This document shows, one piece after another, positions 4,227-22,578 of a DNA stretch of 23,019 bases. The number at the start of each line of letters is the position of its first letter. The first letter of the stretch is position 1. The DNA is from a virus. The notes under the pieces are model-generated. The model was not told where the DNA came from. It ran no database searches and was given only the letters and a program-made list of their open reading frames with translations. Both the position numbers and the translations under genes were made by a program. The stretch lies in the IMG/VR virus record IMGVR_UViG_3300025098_000308, positions 1 through 23,019 of that record, one strand, 5' to 3'.

Positions 4227-6357
4227 TAGCTTGAGGTTGTTCACTAGCGGCTTGATTTGCTGCAGCACCTGCTTGTCCATCATTTCCTGAAAATCCTTGT
4301 TCATTTGGTATAGGAGCTTGTCCTGTACCTATATTACCACCACCTGCTCCTGTGGGGTCTAATGGGTTAGCACCTACAGGTGGTTGACCTGCCTGTGGGG
4401 GTTGTTGAGGTTGTTCACCCTGCATACCTTTTAATATTTCTGCTTGTAAGGCCGCTTCATCCATATTATTAGTAACCTTTTCAGGGTCTAGTTCCATAGA
4501 CTTAGCTATTTCTCTAATAATGTATGGGAACTTAGCAAACGGAGCTAATGCAGGATTGGATGCTACTTGTAAGAAAGACATTAATCTCTGACTACGTACT
4601 TCGTTAGCCATGAGACTTTCTGTACCTCTAGCCTGTACTTCTAAGTCACCTTTAATATCTTTGTTAAAGTTAAACTGCATATTAAAACGAAACATACCCT
4701 CGCCTAGTGGCTTCAATAAGTAATCGTCTACATTCTTTATAACAGTTTTAATACTACCTGCCGCAGCGTTCATAAGCATTGATATACCTGATGCAGTTCT
4801 ACCTACACCTTGTACACCTGTCTGTCCGTGTGCGAATGATGGAAAGCCTGTGCTCTCATCTGCAAGCTGTCTAGCCTTGTCAAACAGTTGTAAGTTCTCA
4901 TTTGATACGTTAGGAAACTTAGTACCGAAGATAGCTTGACCCGGAGCACCACCTTGTCTTCTAAACACTTTGCCCGGATATACGGATAGGTCTTGCCCCG
5001 GAACTAAGTTAGTCTCGTCTACTTCTATAAGTAAGTTACCTGATAACACTGCGTTGTCTACAGACATTCTCATAAAACCATTCATAAGTGTCTGTGTATC
5101 ATCCATGTTTTCAGCTAGACCTACACCAAAGAAAGAATATGGATTAAGTTCGTAAGGAGCTGCCATGTAAGGTATAGTGGCAGGTTTGAAAGGATTAAGA
5201 ACCATTCTTATTAACTTACCATTACTAATCCATATATTTGCTTGTAGTTCGTCAAATTCCTTGAGTTCTTTAGGTATATCTACCTCATTCTCCTCAAGCA
5301 TATCAACGTCACACATTCCCCAATATTCTAGTACTTCAAATCTATCTATTCCGTGGTCTGCTGCATAGTCAGATAAATCATCTTCCCAATACTTTTTGTC
5401 GTAAGATTCCCCAGATGCAATTACTTCATCAATAACATTACCACGAAAGTAAGGTCTCTTCTTTAAACCACGCAACTGTGTTCTTGACATCTTGTGTCGT
5501 TCAATTACATACTGTGCTTCATCCATATTAGCGGCATCAGGGTCAGGAAAGAAGTTCCATACTGATACGTGTGATGTAGATGGTACAGTCTTAAATACAG
5601 GACTGTAGTTACCTTCTTCATCCCAATTAGGATATTCTTTATCTACAGCAAAAGGACCTTTCATTACTCCTGTTCCGAATAATGCCATTTCAAATGCTGT
5701 GCTTCTTAATTGTTTACTAGTGCCTGACTCTTGTAGTTGGTCCATGATTTGTTTTTCCATAGACTTAGCAGCTACCATAGCAGGACTAAATGTAACAGCA
5801 GAAGGTGTTTTACCTACCCCTTCTTCCAACCCTTCAATTTCTCCCAACTTGTCTTGTAAAGGACCCAGCCTTTCTGCCAATGTTTTTTCAGTAGCACCCT
5901 TCGGTAAATCCATGCCATCACCTTTAAACCCATAAGGCGAAGACATCTCAGTTTCTCCCTTAAGCTGTTCAGGCATCTTTGGGTCAAAGCTAACGTCAGC
6001 TGCGACACCTTCAGGTAACACTGTCGGCTCAATGCTAATAGGAAACTTGTTCCCTGCAAATAAAACATCAACAATTTGTCCATAAGCTGCGAGAGTTTTT
6101 GTTTTGGTAACTTTAATAAATACTCTTGACTTTTCTGCTTCAGTAAATTGAACATCACTTCCGTATAACCCCCTATAGTTTCTATAAGACCTTAACCACC
6201 GTTCTTCGTCATTACTACGATAGTCTTCGGCTCGTTGGTATCTATCCATAACAAACGGTATAATACCACTTACTCCTATGTCACTGACTGTTGATTCTTT
6301 AGCATCTTCTAATGCTACTGAATCATCATCTAGTGTTACTTCATCTTTTTCTGCCAT
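4210..6357 (-). CDS. Portal protein
   Basis: A 715-residue product starting at 6357 after AAGGA, with 9 bases between the large terminase stop and this region. The portal forms the dodecameric ring at one capsid vertex through which DNA enters and leaves. Features that fit: a long N-terminal acidic region, the segment RYQRAEDYRSNDEERWLRSY (about 40-60), repeated aromatic and Asp residues in the crown region, a stem-like part with GRTASGISMLMNAAAGSIKT, and a flexible C-terminal tail rich in Gln, Pro, Gly and Asn. Its size matches podovirus-type portals. The order TerL then portal, with almost no gap, is the strongest support. I see nothing truncated. Confidence 0.85.
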   Translation of the reverse strand: MAEKDEVTLDDDSVALEDAKESTVSDIGVSGIIPFVMDRYQRAEDYRSNDEERWLRSYRNYRGLYGSDVQFTEAEKSRVFIKVTKTKTLAAYGQIVDVLFAGNKFPISIEPTVLPEGVAADVSFDPKMPEQLKGETEMSSPYGFKGDGMDLPKGATEKTLAERLGPLQDKLGEIEGLEEGVGKTPSAVTFSPAMVAAKSMEKQIMDQLQESGTSKQLRSTAFEMALFGTGVMKGPFAVDKEYPNWDEEGNYSPVFKTVPSTSHVSVWNFFPDPDAANMDEAQYVIERHKMSRTQLRGLKKRPYFRGNVIDEVIASGESYDKKYWEDDLSDYAADHGIDRFEVLEYWGMCDVDMLEENEVDIPKELKEFDELQANIWISNGKLIRMVLNPFKPATIPYMAAPYELNPYSFFGVGLAENMDDTQTLMNGFMRMSVDNAVLSGNLLIEVDETNLVPGQDLSVYPGKVFRRQGGAPGQAIFGTKFPNVSNENLQLFDKARQLADESTGFPSFAHGQTGVQGVGRTASGISMLMNAAAGSIKTVIKNVDDYLLKPLGEGMFRFNMQFNFNKDIKGDLEVQARGTESLMANEVRSQRLMSFLQVASNPALAPFAKFPYIIREIAKSMELDPEKVTNNMDEAALQAEILKGMQGEQPQQPPQAGQPPVGANPLDPTGAGGGNIGTGQAPIPNEQGFSGNDGQAGAAANQAASEQPQANEQLQ

Positions 6358-15152: not shown

Positions 15153-15199
15153 TGTCAAGAGTATTTTTATATATGTACGGATATTTATTCTAATAATAT

Positions 15200-15280
15200 C
15201 ACTTAAGTGTTCATTTAAGTGTATTTAACAAGTATATATCTTTTTATTTAAGTGTTTTATTATAGTGTTACACTTAAGTG
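15200..15280 (-). repeat. Cluster of TTAAGTG operator-like repeats in the leftward leader
   Basis: Four 10-base units lie between the leftward promoter and the first left-arm gene: CACTTAAGTG at 15200-15209 and 15271-15280 (perfect palindromes), CATTTAAGTG at 15212-15221 and TATTTAAGTG at 15245-15254. Spacings are 12, 33 and 26 bases. A looser inverted copy, AACACTTAAA, lies at 15426-15435. Being palindromic and just downstream of a strong promoter, they look like binding sites for a dimeric repressor, or replication iterons. No factor is identified. Confidence 0.55.
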
Positions 15281-15295
15281 GTTAAGTTATAGCTA

Positions 15296-15324
15296 ATTAT
15301 AACAGGTTTTATACATCTTGTCAA
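15296..15324 (-). promoter_or_regulatory. Perfect consensus sigma70-type promoter driving the left arm
   Basis: On the minus strand TTGACA (15319-15324) is followed by exactly 17 bases and TATAAT (15296-15301), a full match to both consensus boxes at ideal spacing. It reads into the leftward operon that begins at 15152, giving a leader of about 135 bases that contains the TTAAGTG repeats. This implies use of host RNA polymerase and very strong basal firing, perhaps kept in check by a repressor at those repeats. Confidence 0.8.
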
Positions 15325-15360
15325 TAGCAATTAATTTATTCATGTACGATTGTTAATTTA

Positions 15361-15380
15361 GTGTGGTATTTATGTCACAC
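15361..15380. repeat. Hairpin shared with 18383-18402
   Basis: GTGTGG and TCACAC pair (5 bp plus one G-T) around an 8-base loop TATTTATG. The 20-base unit matches 17 of 20 bases of the hairpin at 18383-18402, whose loop is TATAAATG. This is the copy in the hub. Confidence 0.55.
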
Positions 15381-15900
15381 ATTAGGTGCTAGGCAATGGG
15401 TATATTGACAGTTATACTTGTGGTTAACACTTAAAAATACCTATCTGTGTATTTCTCTGAGTACGTATACGTATACCCCCCACCTGCCACCTGCCTAGCC
15501 TATATATATAGTGTAATAGCTAACCTATTGAAATAAATAATGTTTTATATGCTATATATAGACTGAATAATTTAATTTATAGCTATATGTTGTATATAAT
15601 ATGAATAGTTTAAACTGATTTATTATGAGTTATCTTTATTATATTTAATTGATATCATGTATCATAAAAACTGATACCTATACATTAAATCTATATACAT
15701 AAATAAAAAGTAAATACACGTTTACTATATTATATATACATCATTCAACATGATATCATTTAAACACGATTTAAAGACCATACAACAATGTTTATTGTTT
15801 ATGGTATCATTAGTTATATAATTAAGTTTAAGCGTTTTTGTTGTCTATCATACGTTACAAGCCATTGATTAAATTAAATTGAAAATAATTAAAAATAAAC

Positions 15901-15929
15901 TTTACTTATACAAATAAATAAAATATAAG
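15901..15929 (+). promoter_or_regulatory. Predicted promoter for the right arm
   Basis: TTTACT (15901-15906), 17 bases, then TATAAG (15924-15929): 4 of 6 and 5 of 6 matches at ideal spacing. It ends about 40 bases before the first right-arm start codon at 15970. In DNA this AT-rich such matches arise easily, so only its position and spacing favour it. Confidence 0.5.
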
Positions 15930-15969
15930 ATTACTTAATTACATATTAACTTTTTAAGGATTAAACAAA

Positions 15970-16629
15970 ATGACTAATACAATAAACATACAAACTTTAA
16001 CTAATACTGTTAGCATCAACATAAGTAATAACTTAATTGATTTTTATACTAAAACATTAAATGAATATTTACCTTTAAATGGTATTAATAATGGTATTGA
16101 TAAAGTAAGTGAAACAATCCAAAATGAATTATATAATCTTTTATACTATCCAATTAAGATGGAATTATTTAAAAATGATTACTTAGAAATTAAACATGCT
16201 AATGATTTTGATGAAATCTTTATGTTTATAAAAAATGGTACATATTTTGATTATAACTTTAACGTGGATAGTTTAATTGGATTAATAAACAATCAATTAA
16301 ATAAACTGTTTATTAGAATTAAAAAGAATACAATGAAAAAAAGAGTATTAAGTGAGATACAAGACAACAATGATTGTTTTATTATGGATTATAATAATAT
16401 AACTAAAATTAAAGATGTTGATGATATTGTTAGTACTATTAAAGACAATGCATATACACAATTATTATCCTTTGTTTTTTATTATGATAGCAAAGCTATT
16501 AATTATAATTTTGATAGCTTACATAAAATAGTTATGGATTTAAAACATTTAGCTAATAATAAAAAGTATACAAAATTTATAAAAGAAATAGTACAATTTG
16601 AATTAAAAGAAATACATAACAGTAAATAA
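15970..16629 (+). CDS. Hypothetical AT-rich early protein, 219 aa
   Basis: First gene of the rightward arm, with AAGGA about 9 bases before the ATG. The product begins MTNTINIQTLTNTVSINISN and is unusually rich in Asn, Ile, Lys and Asp. It looks mostly helical, with hydrophobic patches such as VDSLIGLINNQLNKLFIRI and YTQLLSFVFYYDS, and no membrane helix that is clear. I recognise no family. Its place directly behind the hub promoter suggests an early function, such as host takeover or replication control, but this is inferred from position only. Confidence 0.7.
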   Translation: MTNTINIQTLTNTVSINISNNLIDFYTKTLNEYLPLNGINNGIDKVSETIQNELYNLLYYPIKMELFKNDYLEIKHANDFDEIFMFIKNGTYFDYNFNVDSLIGLINNQLNKLFIRIKKNTMKKRVLSEIQDNNDCFIMDYNNITKIKDVDDIVSTIKDNAYTQLLSFVFYYDSKAINYNFDSLHKIVMDLKHLANNKKYTKFIKEIVQFELKEIHNSK

Positions 16630-16642
16630 CTTTAATACTCTT

Positions 16643-16688
16643 ATGATACATGTTTTTATTAACGTGTATCATGGGAGCTTTAAAGCTC
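16643..16688 (+). repeat. Intergenic hairpin plus palindrome before the 85-aa gene
   Basis: ATGATACATG (16643-16652) pairs with CGTGTATCAT (16663-16672): 10 bp with one G-T pair and a 10-base loop. Directly after it lies a perfect 14-base palindrome, GAGCTTTAAAGCTC (16675-16688). The hairpin has no T-tail, so it is not a standard intrinsic terminator. It is one of the inverted repeats that fill the gaps of this arm. Confidence 0.7.
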
Positions 16689-16721
16689 AATTAAAGTAAC
16701 AATTAAAAAGGATAAAATAAA

Positions 16722-16979
16722 ATGAATGATACAATTACAAATCAAAATAAATTTGAATGTGAATATTATGAATTAGTTAATGAAATTGAATGTGCTATTG
16801 CAGATATAATAAGAGAAAAAATAATTAAATCACATAATAAAAATATAGCATATGGAATGAAATTTAATTATAAAGATAATGATTTAGATATAGCCATAAA
16901 TAATCATGTTTTTAAAAATGGTTTTAATAGCAATATTGAAAATGTTTTAAATGAAATAGATATACAAGATAAATATTAA
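16722..16979 (+). CDS. Hypothetical acidic protein, 85 aa
   Basis: AAAAAGGA lies about 10 bases before the ATG. The product begins MNDTITNQNKFECEYYELVN, followed by a helix with EIECAIADIIREKIIKSHNK, then a Asn-rich end. It looks like a small helical protein. No family is recognised. It is flanked on both sides by inverted repeats, suggesting it is a self-contained cassette. Confidence 0.65.
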   Translation: MNDTITNQNKFECEYYELVNEIECAIADIIREKIIKSHNKNIAYGMKFNYKDNDLDIAINNHVFKNGFNSNIENVLNEIDIQDKY

Positions 16980-16989
16980 TAAAAATAAA

Positions 16990-17025
16990 TTGACAAGGTT
17001 ATTATTAATTTAGTAACCTTGTTAA
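16990..17025 (+). promoter_or_regulatory. Hairpin with embedded TTGACA before the DUF7227-like gene
   Basis: TTGACAAGGTTA (16990-17001) pairs with TAACCTTGTTAA (17014-17025): 12 bp with a single G-T pair and a 12-base loop. The left arm carries a perfect -35 box, but no good -10 sits at 16-18 bases, so promoter activity is uncertain. The structure itself is very unlikely to be chance. It is followed by a looser version of the shared leader (AAATAACTAA, 17024-17033). Confidence 0.7.
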
Positions 17026-17064
17026 ATAACTAATATAAATTAAATAACATAAGGATATAAACAA

Positions 17065-18075
17065 ATGATTAAATTAGATATAAATAAATATTTAACTAGT
17101 AAAACTTTTAACTTAGATAATGTTACTTATAATAATATTAAAGTTTTAGATATGAATTTAAACCAATTAAAAAATATATGTAAAGATTATGGTTTTACTA
17201 CGTTTTTAAGTGAAAGCAAATCACAAACTAAACTAGCTAAAAACTTAAAAGAATTAAATATGTATTCAATAGGTATTGCTATTGCACCATATGAATTAAT
17301 AAAAGATTTTAATAATAATGATTATCATAAAGATATATTAGATTATTTAAATTATAATGGATTAGATAAAGTTATTACAACAGTTTGCAACAATGCGACT
17401 ATATCTTGTAAAAGTAATTGTGTTATCTTTTATAGTGGAAATCCTGCTTATATAGATGCTAAACAAAAAGCTATGTTAAAACGTAAAAAGTTATTATTAA
17501 ATAATCCTATGTTATTTTTAGCTATGTATATTAGATATATACAATTAAAAGCTAATTACTGTTTAAGAAATAATCTTTTATTATCTATACGTTTTAATAT
17601 TTCAAGTGACATTGAATATGAAAATATTAATATTGTTTATAATAATAAAGTAAATACATTTTCTAATATAGCTAATGAAATAATACAACAAACTAAAATA
17701 GATAATGATAAAGATATCATATTAAAAAATTATGATTATACTAAAAACTTTAATAGAATAGCTAATAAAGATTATAAGTTTGTTTATTCAGTAAGTGACA
17801 ACGATACTAATAAAACTAAAATAGCTATTAATAATGGTTTAAGTTTAGCTATGATATTTGATACAAAAAGAAATAAAGATTTACCTAAAACATATAAAGT
17901 TAATAATAAAATATTTAAAGTTATTGACGGTGATTTACATGATTATTTACCACAACATAAAGAACAATGTATAATTGGATTAAGATTTAAATATAAAGCT
18001 AAGGATAAAAAAGATAAAAGATTAATTGAATTAAATAAAGCTATATTAAATGGATTTGTTAAAATAGCAAGTTAA
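17065..18075 (+). CDS. DUF7227/Gp88-like conserved phage protein, highly AT-adapted
   Basis: A 336-residue product (AAGGA about 10 bases upstream). Its sequence is swamped by Asn, Lys and Ile, but the landmarks of a phage family I recall (DUF7227, related to Gene product 88) are present in order: a Cys-x6-Cys-x3-Cys cluster (CNNATISCKSNC), a basic helix, SIRFNISSDIEYENI, YDYTKNFNRI, YKFVYSVSD, LAMIFDTKR, LPKTYK, VIDGDLHDYLP and IIGLRFKYKAKDKK. The Cys spacing is identical to the one I remember. The biochemical role of the family is unknown; it is often in replication or early regions. Family naming is from memory. No residue that I know to be key is missing. Confidence 0.65.
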   Translation: MIKLDINKYLTSKTFNLDNVTYNNIKVLDMNLNQLKNICKDYGFTTFLSESKSQTKLAKNLKELNMYSIGIAIAPYELIKDFNNNDYHKDILDYLNYNGLDKVITTVCNNATISCKSNCVIFYSGNPAYIDAKQKAMLKRKKLLLNNPMLFLAMYIRYIQLKANYCLRNNLLLSIRFNISSDIEYENINIVYNNKVNTFSNIANEIIQQTKIDNDKDIILKNYDYTKNFNRIANKDYKFVYSVSDNDTNKTKIAINNGLSLAMIFDTKRNKDLPKTYKVNNKIFKVIDGDLHDYLPQHKEQCIIGLRFKYKAKDKKDKRLIELNKAILNGFVKIAS

Positions 18076-18086
18076 TAAATAGGCTA

Positions 18087-18121
18087 GTATAGTATAGTTT
18101 AATTGTTTACCTATGCTATAC
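18087..18121 (+). repeat. Intergenic 11-bp hairpin before the small membrane protein
   Basis: GTATAGTATAG (18087-18097) pairs with CTATGCTATAC (18111-18121), with one G-T pair and a 13-base loop. An outer pair GGCTA (18082-18086) / TAGCC (18132-18136) could extend it. The shared leader TATAACTAAA (18145-18154) and AAAGGA (18157-18162) follow, then the start at 18172. Confidence 0.7.
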
Positions 18122-18171
18122 AGTCTTTAAATAGCCATTAAAGGTATAACTAAAATAAAGGATAGATTAAA

Positions 18172-18369
18172 ATGTTACAATCATTAATACTAACAGTTAA
18201 AATATTAATTATGTTTTCATATTTAATAATGGGATTATATATAATTGATATAGTAGAAACACGTTTTGAATATTGGGATAGTATAGACATGTTGGCTAGT
18301 GCAATAGGTACTATATTTATAATGTTTTCATTTATGTTACTATATATATTTAGTTGTATTAAAAAGTAA
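18172..18369 (+). CDS. Small two-helix membrane protein, 65 aa
   Basis: The product begins MLQSLILTVKILIMFSYLIM, a strong membrane helix to about residue 27, then a short polar loop (VETRFEYWDSIDM), then a second helix (LASAIGTIFIMFSFMLLYIF, about 41-60) and a basic KK end. AAAGGA lies 9 bases upstream. No family is recognised. Early small membrane proteins of phages often block superinfection or disturb host membrane processes; that is a guess here. Confidence 0.65.
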   Translation: MLQSLILTVKILIMFSYLIMGLYIIDIVETRFEYWDSIDMLASAIGTIFIMFSFMLLYIFSCIKK

Positions 18370-18375
18370 AATAAA

Positions 18376-18409
18376 TATTATGGTGTGATATAAATGTCAC
18401 ACTATAATA
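18376..18409 (+). repeat. 13-bp intergenic hairpin, copy of the hub hairpin
   Basis: TATTATGGTGTGA (18376-18388) pairs with TCACACTATAATA (18397-18409), 13 bp with one G-T pair, around loop TATAAATG. The core (18383-18402) matches the hub hairpin at 15361-15380 in 17 of 20 bases. No T-tail follows. It starts only 7 bases after the stop codon at 18369. Confidence 0.7.
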
Positions 18410-18425
18410 AAACATGATAGTAGTA

Positions 18426-18482
18426 TAGTTAGTTAAAATAAATAAAAATAATTAATTGACTAACTAAAAATAATAATATACT
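18426..18482 (+). promoter_or_regulatory. Second hairpin with overlapping promoter-like boxes
   Basis: TAGTTAGTTAA (18426-18436) pairs with TTGACTAACTA (18456-18466), 11 bp with one G-T pair and a 19-base loop. The right arm contains a -35-like TTGACT (18456-18461), followed after 15 bases by TATACT (18477-18482). Both boxes match 5 of 6 bases but spacing is short. The shared leader TATAACTAAA (18490-18499) and AAAGGA (18504-18509) follow before the start at 18519. Confidence 0.55.
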
Positions 18483-18518
18483 TTAATTATATAACTAAAT
18501 AGAAAAGGAAATAATAGA

Positions 18519-18677
18519 ATGGCTAATTCAAAAAAATGTAGTATATGTGATATTCATTTTGATAATAATATTAAATCAGTAATGCATCAAGATGAAGATG
18601 AAGAAGTAAATTTTTATTGTGTATCATGTTATGAAGAAGATTATAATGAAATACATAATCCAACATATGAAGATTAA
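18519..18677 (+). CDS. Small zinc-ribbon-like protein, 52 aa
   Basis: ATG at 18519 follows AAAGGA by 9 bases. The product has two Cys pairs, KKCSICDIHF (Cys7, Cys10) and FYCVSCYEED (Cys34, Cys37), 23 residues apart: the classic C-x2-C ... C-x2-C set for one zinc ion. The rest is acidic, with QDEDEEVN in the middle and a Glu/Asp/Asn-rich end. It may bind a host protein or nucleic acid. The acid content argues for a protein partner. No named family. Confidence 0.68.
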   Translation: MANSKKCSICDIHFDNNIKSVMHQDEDEEVNFYCVSCYEEDYNEIHNPTYED

Positions 18678-18700
18678 TTTAAATAGAAAAGGAAACTAAA

Positions 18701-18892
18701 ATGAAAATACAAGTATTTATAAAAAATGTATATGGTAATAAGTTTTTTTATCCTAAATGTAAAATAGCTAAATCATTTTCAGATATTGCCAAAACTAAAA
18801 CATTGTCAATAGAAACTTTAAACACTATTACATCAATGGGATATGATGTACAATTAGAAAATGAAATAGATATAAAGGATTTATTAAAATGA
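18701..18892 (+). CDS. Hypothetical protein, 63 aa
   Basis: AAAAGGA precedes the ATG by about 8 bases. The product begins MKIQVFIKNVYGNKFFYPKC and continues KIAKSFSDIAKTKTLSIETL, ending in DVQLENEIDIKDLLK. It looks like a small alpha/beta protein. I recall short phage proteins with the same pattern (a YG.. FYP start and a T..TL end) but no function. Its TGA overlaps the next ATG (ATGA), so the two are coupled. Confidence 0.65.
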   Translation: MKIQVFIKNVYGNKFFYPKCKIAKSFSDIAKTKTLSIETLNTITSMGYDVQLENEIDIKDLLK

Positions 18893-19035
18893 AATACAAT
18901 ATAAAACTAAAACTATTAAAAGAAATTGATAGACGTAAATTAAGACAATTTGAAATAGAAACTAAGTATAGATTAATGAAAGCAGTAACAGGAGGTAATG
19001 AAAAATATAGACGTGAATATAATAAAAAAAAGTAA
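18889..19035 (+). CDS. Basic microprotein, 48 aa
   Basis: The ATG at 18889 overlaps the preceding stop (ATGA). The product begins MKYNIKLKLLKEIDRRKLRQ and ends with NEKYRREYNKKK. It is strongly basic and probably one or two helices. Coupling to the 63-residue gene is the best evidence that it is translated. No ribosome site is needed or seen beyond TAAAGGA about 12 bases before. The function is unknown; RNA or DNA binding is possible. Confidence 0.55.
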   Translation: MKYNIKLKLLKEIDRRKLRQFEIETKYRLMKAVTGGNEKYRREYNKKK

Positions 19036-19040
19036 ATAAA

Positions 19041-19073
19041 GTTATTGACATACTTTTAGTTGTATGACATAAC
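19041..19073 (+). promoter_or_regulatory. Promoter-like boxes inside an imperfect hairpin
   Basis: TTGACA (19045-19050), 17 bases, then CATAAC (19068-19073; 4 of 6). The same bases form an imperfect hairpin: GTTAT/ATAAC (19041-19045 with 19069-19073) and CATAC/GTATG (19049-19053 with 19062-19066) around an 8-base loop. The shared leader TATAACAAAA (19094-19103) and AAAGGA (19106-19111) follow. Confidence 0.55.
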
Positions 19074-19118
19074 ATAAGAATAGAAAATAATTGTATAACA
19101 AAATGAAAGGATAATACA

Positions 19119-19277
19119 ATGAAAAAAATAATCAAAAATCCAATAGGAAACAAAAACATTTTCTTTAGACGTACTACAAATAGATATGCTCAAAAAGGTA
19201 CTATCTCACATAATGTAGGTTATTTCTATGTTAGTAGAGATGCTGAAAATGGACAATTTATTAAAAGACAAAAATAA
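19119..19277 (+). CDS. Basic microprotein, 52 aa
   Basis: AAAGGA ends 7 bases before the ATG at 19119. The product begins MKKIIKNPIGNKNIFFRRTT and continues NRYAQKGTISHNVGYFYVSR, ending FIKRQK. Basic and aromatic, with a beta-strand look; it could be a small nucleic-acid-binding fold. It has its own promoter-like element upstream and another hairpin cassette directly downstream, so it may be expressed alone. No family is recognised. Confidence 0.6.
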   Translation: MKKIIKNPIGNKNIFFRRTTNRYAQKGTISHNVGYFYVSRDAENGQFIKRQK

Positions 19278-19289
19278 ATTAAATAACTC

Positions 19290-19332
19290 TTTACAAGTAA
19301 ATTATAATGATGTAGTTTACTTGTATAACTAA
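19290..19332 (+). promoter_or_regulatory. Hairpin-leader element, copy A
   Basis: ACAAGTAAA (19293-19301) and TTTACTTGT (19316-19324) pair over 9 bp around a 14-base loop beginning TTATAATG and ending TAG; TTTACA (19290-19295) lies on the left arm. The leader TATAACTAA (19324-19332) follows, then AAAGGA (19342-19347) and the start at 19357. It is a near copy of the element at 20515-20558, with a compensatory stem change. Confidence 0.72.
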
Positions 19333-19356
19333 CCAATAACAAAAGGAGAATATAAG

Positions 19357-19659
19357 ATGTTACATAAAATATATAGAAAATCTAAGTTAACAGGTAATAT
19401 AAATAGTATGGAATTGCCATTGTCAAACTTTCAAATTGATATGAGACAATGTAAAACAGATGACGATTTAAGAAATGAATTTCAATTCCTAAACTTTAGT
19501 GAAAGACAATTTTTATTAACAGGAATTACATTAAAAGAACAATTACTAAACAATCCTATATTTTATAAAAAAATAACTAAAGATGATAAAAATAAATATG
19601 ATTTTAAAATAACAAAAGCACAATACGAAAAATTAAATAAACAACAGGAGAATATATAA
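19357..19659 (+). CDS. Conserved phage protein upstream of DUF932
   Basis: The 100-residue product (AAAAGGAGA upstream) begins MLHKIYRKSKLTGNINSMEL and contains NEFQFLNFSERQFLLTGITL, a motif (F..L...ER.F..TGIT) that I recall in small phage proteins often encoded beside DUF932 genes. It has a basic N-terminus and a Lys/Asp-rich C-terminal extension longer than the versions I remember. The function is unknown. The stop TAA overlaps the next ATG (TAATG), so it is coupled to the DUF932 gene. Confidence 0.68.
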   Translation: MLHKIYRKSKLTGNINSMELPLSNFQIDMRQCKTDDDLRNEFQFLNFSERQFLLTGITLKEQLLNNPIFYKKITKDDKNKYDFKITKAQYEKLNKQQENI

Positions 19660-20507
19660 TGTTAGATACAAAAAGATTAATAAACCTAGATGAAAGTTTA
19701 CTATTTGATATAGGTTATGAAAAGACAAGATTACCTAGTAAAAAATATGTTATGAATGTTAATGAAGATATACCTATTGGAATAGTAGGCAAGAGTTTTA
19801 ATACTACATCACATAAAATATTCATAAATGGTGTAGAGAATGTGATAAAAGAAAATAGGACACCATACGAATTAGAAAATGCTAAAGTTAAGGTGTCTAC
19901 TGCTAAAGATAATGCAGTAATAATAGCTGATATAACTTTACCTAATGTTACTACTAAAATAACTACTGATAAGCATACAACTACCATTGCTGAACGTATC
20001 ATAGCATTACATGGAGTTGATGGTAGTATGTCTAATCAAGTATTTTTTGGTGCAATAGATTTCTTTTGTACTAATGGTCAGATAAGAGGTGAATATGATA
20101 AAGTTAGACGTAAAAACACATCTAATTTTAACATAGATACATTCATAGATGAATTACAAAATGCTAAACAAGATTTTTATGCACAATCTCAAAAGCTACA
20201 ATCATGGGCTAACATTAAATTAGATGGTGTAGATGTCGCAGAAATCATTAAGAACATAGTTAAATCAGATAGGAAAGCTGAAAAAATGACTAGCCTATAC
20301 TATAATGAGGTAGCCAATAGAGGTAGTAATGTATTCTCTTTATATTCAGCATTTACTAACTACTCTAGCTATGCTGATGAAAGGAATGGATTTAGCCTAA
20401 AGAATATGGGAAATGATACTGAAAGTTTATCTATGTGGAATAGAGAACAAGAGGTAAGCAAATGGATATCATCTAATGAGTTTAAGAAACTTGAATTAGT
20501 TGCATAA
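19659..20507 (+). CDS. DUF932 family protein (phage/plasmid-like)
   Basis: The 282-residue product starts at 19659, with CAGGAG 8 bases upstream. The central landmarks of DUF932 are clear: MSNQVFFGAIDFFCTNGQI (about 124-142), a Lys/Glu/Asn helical region, and NVFSLYSAFTNYSSYADE near 230-247. DUF932 proteins are widespread in phages and plasmids, have no settled function, and are thought to act early, perhaps in DNA metabolism. From this gene on, base composition rises toward 30% GC and the sequence becomes much more family-like than upstream genes. No part is missing. Confidence 0.85.
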   Translation: MLDTKRLINLDESLLFDIGYEKTRLPSKKYVMNVNEDIPIGIVGKSFNTTSHKIFINGVENVIKENRTPYELENAKVKVSTAKDNAVIIADITLPNVTTKITTDKHTTTIAERIIALHGVDGSMSNQVFFGAIDFFCTNGQIRGEYDKVRRKNTSNFNIDTFIDELQNAKQDFYAQSQKLQSWANIKLDGVDVAEIIKNIVKSDRKAEKMTSLYYNEVANRGSNVFSLYSAFTNYSSYADERNGFSLKNMGNDTESLSMWNREQEVSKWISSNEFKKLELVA

Positions 20508-20514
20508 CTAACAC

Positions 20515-20558
20515 TTGACAAGTAGATTATAATGGGATAGTCTACTTGTATAACTAAA
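20515..20558 (+). promoter_or_regulatory. Hairpin-leader element, copy B
   Basis: TTGACA (20515-20520) starts the element; ACAAGTAGA (20518-20526) pairs with TCTACTTGT (20541-20549), 9 bp, around a 14-base loop that again starts TTATAATG and ends TAG. TATAACTAAA (20549-20558) and AAAGGA (20561-20566) lead to the start at 20574. A -10 at 17 bases from TTGACA would be TAGTCT, a weak match. Confidence 0.72.
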
Positions 20559-20573
20559 TGAAAGGAAAATAAA

Positions 20574-20771
20574 ATGACAATAAAAGAATTAATTAAACAC
20601 TTATCAAGATACAATGAGAATACAAGATTAGATTTTATGTACACTAATGATGCTTTAGCTGATACACAATTTGATATTCCATTAAAGCTAATAGGAGTTA
20701 TAGGTAGTGGAGATACTACTGAAAATTGTGATATTAAATATTTAGAATTAGGATTAATTGAGGAGAAATAA
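20574..20771 (+). CDS. Small conserved phage protein, 65 aa
   Basis: AAAGGA precedes the ATG by 7 bases. The product begins MTIKELIKHLSRYNENTRLD, then DFMYTNDALADTQFDIP and ends IKYLELGLIEEK. It resembles the many small phage proteins with an N-terminal TIKELI..L...... D..V pattern, function unknown. It has a hairpin-leader element of its own and begins a tight run with the nucleotidase (one base between this stop and the next ATG). Confidence 0.65.
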   Translation: MTIKELIKHLSRYNENTRLDFMYTNDALADTQFDIPLKLIGVIGSGDTTENCDIKYLELGLIEEK

Positions 20772-20772
20772 A

Positions 20773-21276
20773 ATGACAGTTAAAAGAAAAGTTTATGTAG
20801 ACATGGATGGTGTCATAGCTGATTTCTTTAAAGCACTAGAAATAAAGTATGGTGTACAACATTGGAAAGACATAAACATAGCACAATCAATATCAGAATT
20901 AAAAGGTACTGATTTCTTTGGAACAATACCTAAGTTTGAAACAAGTGATAAGCTGATTAGTCATATAGATAAACTAACTAAAGGAGAATGGATTATACTT
21001 TCATCTCCATTAAGATATGACAATAAGAACTCAGCATTTTGGAAAAGACATTGGCTAGATAAGCATAATTATAATCCAAGTGATGCTATCTTTACAGGTA
21101 GGAAAGAAAAGTATGCCATTAATAGAGCATACACTAAAGGTAACATCTTAATTGATGACAAGCCTGACAACATTCAGAAATGGATTGATAAAGGTGGGAT
21201 AGGTATACTATACCAAGCTAATCAAGATAGCTTAGACTACTTGTATGACAGATTAGAAAAATATTACAAGGAGTAG
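20773..21276 (+). CDS. 5'(3')-deoxyribonucleotidase-like HAD phosphatase (NT5C type)
   Basis: I start it at ATG 20773, with GAGGAG about 8 bases upstream, rather than at a TTG five codons earlier. The 167-residue product has all HAD motifs: VDMDGVIAD (Asp10 nucleophile, Asp12 acid/base), IILSSPL (Ser77/Ser78), TGRKEKYA (Lys111 or Lys113) and ILIDDKPDN (Asp128, Asp129). The pattern matches the NT5C nucleotidase family, which removes phosphate from (deoxy)nucleoside monophosphates. In phages it may adjust nucleotide pools, for instance by removing a competing dNMP. The gene sits just before the cytosine methyltransferase in a coupled run. The substrate cannot be read from sequence. Confidence 0.85.
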   Translation: MTVKRKVYVDMDGVIADFFKALEIKYGVQHWKDINIAQSISELKGTDFFGTIPKFETSDKLISHIDKLTKGEWIILSSPLRYDNKNSAFWKRHWLDKHNYNPSDAIFTGRKEKYAINRAYTKGNILIDDKPDNIQKWIDKGGIGILYQANQDSLDYLYDRLEKYYKE

Positions 21277-21281
21277 TTGAC

Positions 21282-21395
21282 ATGGATGAAGAAGAGTTAT
21301 ATAACTTATTTGAAGATACGATGAAAGAGTTTGATAAACAATTTTTACCTAACGAAGAAATACCAATAGGAGATAAAGACAATGGTAATAGCTAG
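21282..21395 (+). CDS. Acidic microprotein, 37 aa
   Basis: AAGGAG ends 8 bases before the ATG at 21282; it overlaps the methyltransferase start by 14 bases. The product begins MDEEELYNLFEDTMKEFDKQ and ends EEIPIGDKDNGNS, giving a strongly acidic single helix. It could be a coupling leader for the methyltransferase or a small inhibitor peptide. The good ribosome site is the main support. Confidence 0.5.
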   Translation: MDEEELYNLFEDTMKEFDKQFLPNEEIPIGDKDNGNS

Positions 21396-22578
21396 TATTT
21401 TTAATGGATATGGTGGTGGTATGTTAGCTAGTATAAAAGCAAGTATACCTATAACTAAGTATTATTATTCAGAAATAGATAAGTATGCTAACATAGTAAT
21501 GGATGCTAACTTTCCTGATGCAATACCAATAGGAGATGTAACTAAAGTTGATGCTAGTAGTTTCAATCACGATGTTGATATCCTAATGGGAGGTAGTCCA
21601 TGTCAAGGATTTTCATTTGCAGGAAAACAATTAAACTTTAATGATGAACGTAGTAAATTATTCTTTGAGTTTATTAGATTAAGAGATGAACTAAAGCCTA
21701 AGTATATACTGTTAGAGAATGTTAGGATGTCTAAACAATCTCAAGATGTTATATCAGAATACATGGGATTTGAATGTCAAGCATTAAATTCTAGTAAACT
21801 ATCTGCACAAAATAGATATAGGTTGTATTGGTTTGGTGTACTAGTCAATGGTAAGTATGAGCAAATTCGTATTGCTGATATGATTGATAAAGGAATAGTT
21901 ATGCAAGACATATTAGAAGATGGTTATGCTACTGAAGAGATGACTAATGCTGATGGTAAATCTCATTGCCTTACTGCTAGATATAATGGTGCAGTATGGT
22001 GGAATAGTATTGAACGTAAGCAACGTACTATGGTACTGAAAGATAATCCTACAGTATCTAAAGATGGATTGATTAGAGTTGGTACTGCTGATTTAAGAGG
22101 GCATGACAGTATCAAAAGAGTTTATGCTCAAGAGGGTAAAGCACCTACCTTAACTACGATGCAAGGTGGTCATAGAGAGCCTAAAGTTGCAGTAGGTAGG
22201 ATAGTGAATAGAAGATTAGATGAGCATGGTACTAGGAAAGATGACCAACTAGATTTACCATTTACAAGACAGTTAGAAGTTAGGGAAGATGAGAAATCTA
22301 ATTGTCTAACTACTGTACAAAAAGATAATGTAGTAGTATCTAAAGATATGTGGAGAAAGCTAACACCTTTAGAATGTGAAAGATTACAAACCTTACCTGA
22401 CAACTACACTAATCATGTATCTAATAGTCAAAGATACAAGATGATTGGTAATGGATGGACAGTTGATGTGATTGCACATATACTGCAAGGTGTATTGATA
22501 ATTGAAAAGTACGATAGTGATATGACTAAGATAAAAGAATGGCACAAAATGTATAACAATAACAAGGAGTTAGTATGA
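21382..22578 (+). CDS. DNA (cytosine-5) methyltransferase
   Basis: A 398-residue enzyme transferring methyl from S-adenosylmethionine to C5 of cytosine. Motif I is IFNGYGGGMLASIKA (about 6-20), motif IV GGSPCQGFSFAG (70-81, catalytic Cys74), motif VI LLENVR (110-115), motif VIII QNRYRLYWFGV (143-153), motif IX RKLTPLECERLQTLPDNY (about 325-342) and motif X MIGNGWTVDVIAHIL (354-368). All catalytic motifs are intact. The recognition region (about 180-320) holds three related segments: KSHCLTARYNGAVW, KAPTLTTMQGGHREPK and KSNCLTTVQKDNVVV. No partner restriction gene is seen, so it is probably an orphan methylase used against host restriction or for phage regulation. The start overlaps the acidic microprotein by 14 bases, with AGGAGA upstream. 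Confidence 0.93.
   Translation: MVIASIFNGYGGGMLASIKASIPITKYYYSEIDKYANIVMDANFPDAIPIGDVTKVDASSFNHDVDILMGGSPCQGFSFAGKQLNFNDERSKLFFEFIRLRDELKPKYILLENVRMSKQSQDVISEYMGFECQALNSSKLSAQNRYRLYWFGVLVNGKYEQIRIADMIDKGIVMQDILEDGYATEEMTNADGKSHCLTARYNGAVWWNSIERKQRTMVLKDNPTVSKDGLIRVGTADLRGHDSIKRVYAQEGKAPTLTTMQGGHREPKVAVGRIVNRRLDEHGTRKDDQLDLPFTRQLEVREDEKSNCLTTVQKDNVVVSKDMWRKLTPLECERLQTLPDNYTNHVSNSQRYKMIGNGWTVDVIAHILQGVLIIEKYDSDMTKIKEWHKMYNNNKELV

Follow-up and report, generated by a model that had tools for sequence, protein, structure and literature searches.

Phage Fragment and Related Contigs

The stretch of DNA considered in this study (the window) is the full IMG/VR record, 23,019 bases in length. Its late genes, including those for terminase, an SU10-like portal, and lysozyme, lie on the minus strand and extend to about 15.2 kb, and its early genes, small and AT-rich, lie on the plus strand, beginning at 15,970. 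HMO-2011 and Roseobacter phage CRP-1 have terminases about 80% identical to that of the window, whose DUF932 gene (19659-20507) matches its counterparts in the same two phages at 51-55%. These matches identify the window as part of the genome of an HMO-2011-type podophage. A paper on the HMO-2011 group describes such phages as dominant and widespread in the ocean and makes no mention of promoters, terminators, or hairpins (PMC9038755), and a literature search for promoters or hairpins of HMO-2011 turned up nothing of use. RNA polymerase is not among the genes listed in the annotated early regions (first 30 kb) of HMO-2011, CRP-1, and CRP-345, which is consistent with use of the host enzyme.

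A divergent control region (15159-15969, about 810 bp) contains two CACTTAAGTG palindromes (15200 and 15271), additional TTTAAGTGT half sites, and, on the minus strand (15324-15296), a perfect TTGACA-17-TATAAT promoter sequence. A C5 cytosine DNA methylase gene (21382-22578) lies beside a 5'-deoxyribonucleotidase gene (20758-21276). No tRNA or Rfam element was found in the window, no score exceeding the curated Rfam threshold.

The comparison set consisted of 80 viral contigs gathered through relatives of the DUF932 gene. The AT-rich early region is common to about ten contigs (L002-L012, L032, L048), referred to below as the AT-rich clade. L002 is longer than the window and 100% identical to it. 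The two ends of L003 (G002, a contig of 59,302 bp) overlap in content, yet their sequences are only 88-98% identical, the result of either mixed strains or an unusual assembly.

Hairpins in the Gaps between Early Genes

The inverted repeats listed in a first-pass annotation of this DNA are all present at the coordinates given there, and strong stems are in excess over shuffled sequence. Between 15970 and 20575 there are nine stems at or below -9 kcal/mol, compared to 0.89 expected from 100 dinucleotide shuffles (maximum 4), six at or below -12 kcal/mol (0.13 expected), every one of them in a gap between genes, and three at or below -15 kcal/mol (0.02 expected). DNA of 19-24% GC is expected from its composition to yield many weak repeats, and one might ask whether the hairpins arose by chance, but the number of strong stems and the covariation described below make that explanation very nearly negligible. 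Strong stems of the late region occur only within genes, and that region has just two gaps of at least 40 bp.

A sense-strand U-tract is absent behind all of the window's repeats. They are therefore not ordinary intrinsic terminators, a point already made in the first-pass annotation, and any function they may have at the 3' end of a message is something other than standard termination.

The repeats had been presented as one family, fit for a single covariance model of all seven elements. They are too heterogeneous for such a model to be valid: they fall into three classes (A, B, and C) plus the hairpin at 18085, with no arm sequence in common. In what follows, R1 denotes a covariance model of the class A elements, and a strong match is one above 50 bits. 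The features are these:

16638-16677, plus strand: class B hairpin, 8 nt past the stop of 15970-16629; 15-bp stem, 10-nt loop
16988-17027, plus strand: class A hairpin, 8 nt past the stop of 16722-16979
16990-17019, plus strand: promoter-like TTGACA-18-TAACCT within the class A hairpin (from box spacing)
18085-18123, plus strand: hairpin outside classes A-C, 9 nt past the stop of 17065-18075; leader TATAACTAAAATAAAGGA at 18145
18376-18409, plus strand: class C hairpin GTGTGA..TCACAC, 6 nt past the stop of 18172-18369
18426-18466, plus strand: inverted repeat from the first-pass annotation; left arm absent in L003
18456-18495, plus strand: promoter-like TTGACT-17-TACTTT, then a TATAAC leader, without a conserved hairpin
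19041-19073, plus strand: imperfect dyad with TTGACA-17-CATAAC; leader TATAACAAAATGAAAGGA further downstream at 19094
19287-19333, plus strand: class A hairpin with putative promoter and leader, upstream of 19357; 68 bits to R1; covarying stem
19290-19318, plus strand: promoter-like TTTACA-17-TAGTTT within the hairpin (from the class A alignment and box spacing)
20512-20558, plus strand: class A hairpin with putative promoter and leader, upstream of 20574; 69.9 bits to R1; covarying stem
20515-20543, plus strand: promoter-like TTGACA-17-TAGTCT within the hairpin (from the class A alignment and box spacing)
20549-20576, plus strand: leader TATAACTAAATGAAAGGA to the start codon; predicted mRNA 5' end of 20574-20771

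Two of the listed repeats fare less well than the rest. The one at 18426-18466 was rejected as a conserved hairpin on account of its missing arm in L003, and the imperfect repeat at 19041-19073, though present, is weak (-10.5 kcal for the entire gap). The class B hairpin has no clear promoter, and none of the hairpins at 16638, 18085, and 18376 is overlapped by a convincing one. The class C hairpin resembles a GTGTTGC..GCAACAC hairpin of L007 and L010, which is followed there by a T5 tail and then a promoter and which looks like a plain terminator. The gene at 18519-18677 is missing from L003 (window 18701 versus L003 2198) and is flanked in the window by two short AAATAGAAAAGGAAA leader copies, which suggests that it was deleted or gained through recombination between them.

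The proposal that genes move with these elements as cassettes receives modest support. The class B hairpin covaries with two copies in L007 (6039-6078 and 7194-7233; four two-sided changes among the three sequences), and one of those copies, part of a hairpin-plus-leader relative of 16638-16721, precedes an unrelated gene. The segment 18076-18369, comprising hairpin, leader, and small gene, is an insert missing from L003 and L008.

The hairpins had also been considered attached to the start codons that follow them. Within the AT-rich clade they begin 4-14 nt past the upstream stop codon, whereas anything from 13 to 109 nt separates them from the next start (permutation p for stop-codon anchoring, 3.5e-5). 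The hairpins therefore belong to gene ends, not to the following starts. As a result of this tight packing, the -35 box is placed directly behind the stop codon.

Conservation and Covariation of the Stems

About ten related contigs preserve the stem at homologous gaps (18426-18466 excepted) even though both arms differ in sequence, the conservation that the first-pass annotation had looked for. The arms upstream of the DUF932 gene, for example, read ACAAGTARA, ACAAGCAGA, or ACTAACACA in different homologues, and the same gap as 16988-17027 is occupied in L008 (7538-7573) by a hairpin of different arm sequence. The class A elements, 13 sequences of which many share ancestry, align without gaps. 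Within these homologous stems, 98.8% of cells are paired, and two-sided changes occur in 6 of the 13 pairs, affecting 22 cells, compared to 5.8 in shuffles. The score for covariation, 0.48, exceeds the 0.20 of shuffles, and pairing falls to 29-47% when one arm is slid by 1-3 columns. By the evidence of these alignments, the pairing of the stem is maintained by matched mutations despite replacement of the arm sequence.

All R1 matches above 50 bits are on the sense strand, among early genes, before starts (as had been predicted of genuine elements), and in the AT-rich clade only, with no strong match in HMO-2011, CRP-1, or CRP-345. Most of the 16-30-bit matches on the opposite strand reflect these same palindromes in reverse. 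The idea of a host-derived element was rejected: genome contigs yielded no match to the ACAAG-arm pattern, which among viral contigs is confined to this clade.

A hairpin that works as RNA may be distinguished from a dyad that works as duplex DNA by the mismatches its arms tolerate. With dyads identified by Watson-Crick pairing only, interior arm mismatches on the sense strand comprise 19 G.T and 1 A.C, where base composition predicts a ratio of about 1:1. At stem position 13 a T.G pair recurs through common descent, and a rough discount for ancestry leaves about 10 independent cases, 9 G.T to 1 A.C (p about 0.01). The excess of G.T over A.C indicates selection on the hairpin as a sense transcript.

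These observations bear on the possibility that the repeats are DNA operators, sites over a sigma70 promoter to which a repressor or activator of the phage would bind as a dimer, an idea put forward for the ESAS repeats of mycobacteriophages. The dyad does cover the region from -35 to -1, a common location for operators, and ACAAGTAG arms are common to two copies per genome. However, arms also differ within a genome (ACAAGTAG versus ACAAGGTTA in the window, ACTAGCAG versus ACAAGTAG in L008) and are entirely different between homologous gaps, and the binding of duplex DNA does not predict the strand asymmetry of the mismatches. I therefore consider operators unlikely. Tyrosine-recombinase core sites and integron attC sites, which share the arm-spacer-arm shape, were set aside because of the variation of arms within a genome and mismatches that favor sense RNA.

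Register of the Putative Promoter and Leader

TTGAC(A/T) occurs at 16990, 18456, 19045, and 20515, and its presence in hairpin arms, like that of TATAAC(T/A)A followed by AAAGGA before start codons, is as the first-pass annotation described. The strict pattern TATAACTAAA-n-AAAGGA-n-ATG is found three times and never in shuffles. In class A elements, TTGAC(A/T) and TAnnnT lie 16-18 nt apart within the stem, and the invariant columns include TT.AC of the -35 box and T, A, and T (positions 1, 2, and 6) of the -10 box, the positions that carry most information in sigma70 boxes. The spacing and conserved register are those of a sigma70-type promoter, in keeping with the suggestion of a promoter role; the -10 hexamers within hairpins are weak matches (3-4 of 6 positions), perhaps the price of maintaining a stem. 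Among 16 elements hand-picked for a TTG box and leader, so that the result is descriptive rather than an unbiased test, TAnnnT peaks at a spacing of 17 (9 of 16, with 0-4 at other spacings). A generic sigma70 scan of the AT-rich window DNA was uninformative, finding no excess (60 sites, 74 expected from shuffles).

In most cases 26-29 nt separate the -35 box from TATAAC, whether a hairpin is present or not, and several gaps that lack hairpins have the same order of elements with better -10 boxes (TTGACA-16-TATTAT and TTGACA-17-TATTAC). TATAAC was itself rejected as the -10 box, given its distance from TTGAC and the in-register -10 candidates that lie between. Since the register of -35, -10, and leader is kept in both kinds of gap, TATAACTAA...AAAGGA is best read as the 5' leader of a new mRNA, transcription presumably beginning there.

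It might be argued that the hairpin too is just part of the downstream message, where it would tune translation, stability, or processing by RNase III; TTGAC would then be no promoter at all. RNase III sites precede early genes in T7-type phages, selection on sense RNA is what such a role would entail, and the Shine-Dalgarno sequence and start codon do come after the hairpin. The hairpin's position is nonetheless tied to the stop rather than the start, and the register persists in gaps that have no hairpin. I judge this explanation slightly more doubtful than that of operators.

The gap after the DUF932 gene in L010 (10042-10140) contains a U-tailed terminator and then a separate TTGACA-17-TATTAC promoter sequence, as if the end and start signals were there unfused. 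As in the window, the end signal of one gene is followed by the start signal of the next; in the window, however, the two parts use the same bases and there is no U-tract. The L010 terminator, at a homologous gap, and the closeness of the hairpins to stop codons could be taken to mean that the window's hairpins are unusual terminators, intrinsic or factor-dependent, that need no U-tract, with the resemblance to promoters a product of AT-richness. This is improbable, in view of the absent U-tract itself, the U-tails of terminator-like hairpins at such gaps in related phages, and the invariance of the -35 and -10 columns.

Comparison with Known Systems

The first-pass annotation likened the elements to the SAS/ESAS of cluster K mycobacteriophages. 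The architecture is apt: both recur in intergenic positions ahead of small non-structural genes, with a conserved leader by the start. ESAS inverted repeats contain SigA-like -35 and -10 boxes 17-18 bp apart (PMC11373665), and class A hairpins likewise contain TTGAC(A/T)-17/18-TAnnnT. Membership in that family fails. The 13-bp SAS GGGATAGGAGCCC was not found next to starts with two or fewer mismatches (one match with three mismatches, at 4307 of the window, is at chance level). ESAS arms follow one consensus per subcluster, in 17-bp repeats, whereas arms in the window differ between copies and between homologues. According to Pope et al. (PMC3203893), who preferred an explanation based on DNA binding, RNA pairing is not supported by the ESAS repeats; the stems described here, by contrast, show compensatory pairing. 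Moreover, host and phage are unrelated, and the window's hairpins are anchored to stop codons. Judged on sequence, cluster K is a parallel, not a family to which these elements belong.

T7-type phages have RNase III sites next to promoters. The similarity lies in hairpins near promoters between early genes of a polycistronic transcript. The difference is that the candidate promoter here is host sigma70-like and lies within the hairpin DNA; processing by RNase III would be putative.

A further comparison is with a hairpin of the wider HMO-2011 group (found in L018, L021, L024, L043, L059, L063, L070, L072, L078, L082, L083, and L084), which occurs in early regions and has covarying arms of 12-14 bp and a conserved loop, TTGA(T)ACTTTAGTGAAAG. 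It is often followed by a second mini-hairpin, GTCCAACATTGGAC, ahead of the Shine-Dalgarno sequence. It shares with the window's hairpins a covarying stem and TTGA and TATAAC-like boxes inside, and differs in its conserved loop, its number (one or two copies found per locus), its lack of a G.U excess, and its failure to match R1. In CRP-345 it lies 11 nt after a stop codon, and for that reason gene-end hairpins may be general in the HMO-2011 group, although in CRP-1 it overlaps the annotated end of gp02.

A Proposed Fusion of End and Start Signals

Starting from what can be read directly in the DNA (hairpins, their covariation, the sense-strand preference for G.U, anchoring to stops, and the -35/-10/leader register), I favor, by a modest margin of belief, the explanation that an RNA hairpin at the end of one gene is fused with a sigma70-type promoter of the next. 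The gaps would then act as punctuation elements between early genes. In transcripts leaving the upstream gene, the hairpin would work as RNA; its most likely role would be to mark the message's 3' end or to shield it, whether by blocking 3' exonucleases, by serving as a processing site, or by causing a pause. The same DNA in class A gaps (16988-17027, 19287-19333, and 20512-20558) would serve as a promoter for the host's sigma70-type polymerase, with its -35 box in the left arm and its -10 box, 16-18 nt away, in the right arm. The new transcript would begin with the (T)ATAACTAA leader immediately beyond the hairpin, to be followed by AAAGGA and the start codon.

A broader form of this explanation is more tentative, and I hold it as somewhat less than an even prospect: that one stretch of 36-40 bp, encoding both a hairpin of sense RNA to end the upstream message and the -35 and -10 boxes to start the next, is general in HMO-2011-type phages, making each early gene its own transcription unit. 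Such a rule of gene end and gene start would predict the early transcription units of HMO-2011-type phages from sequence alone. It would also provide, beside the cluster K mycobacteriophages, a second and unrelated case of a promoter within an inverted repeat, here with sequence evidence for a role at the level of RNA.
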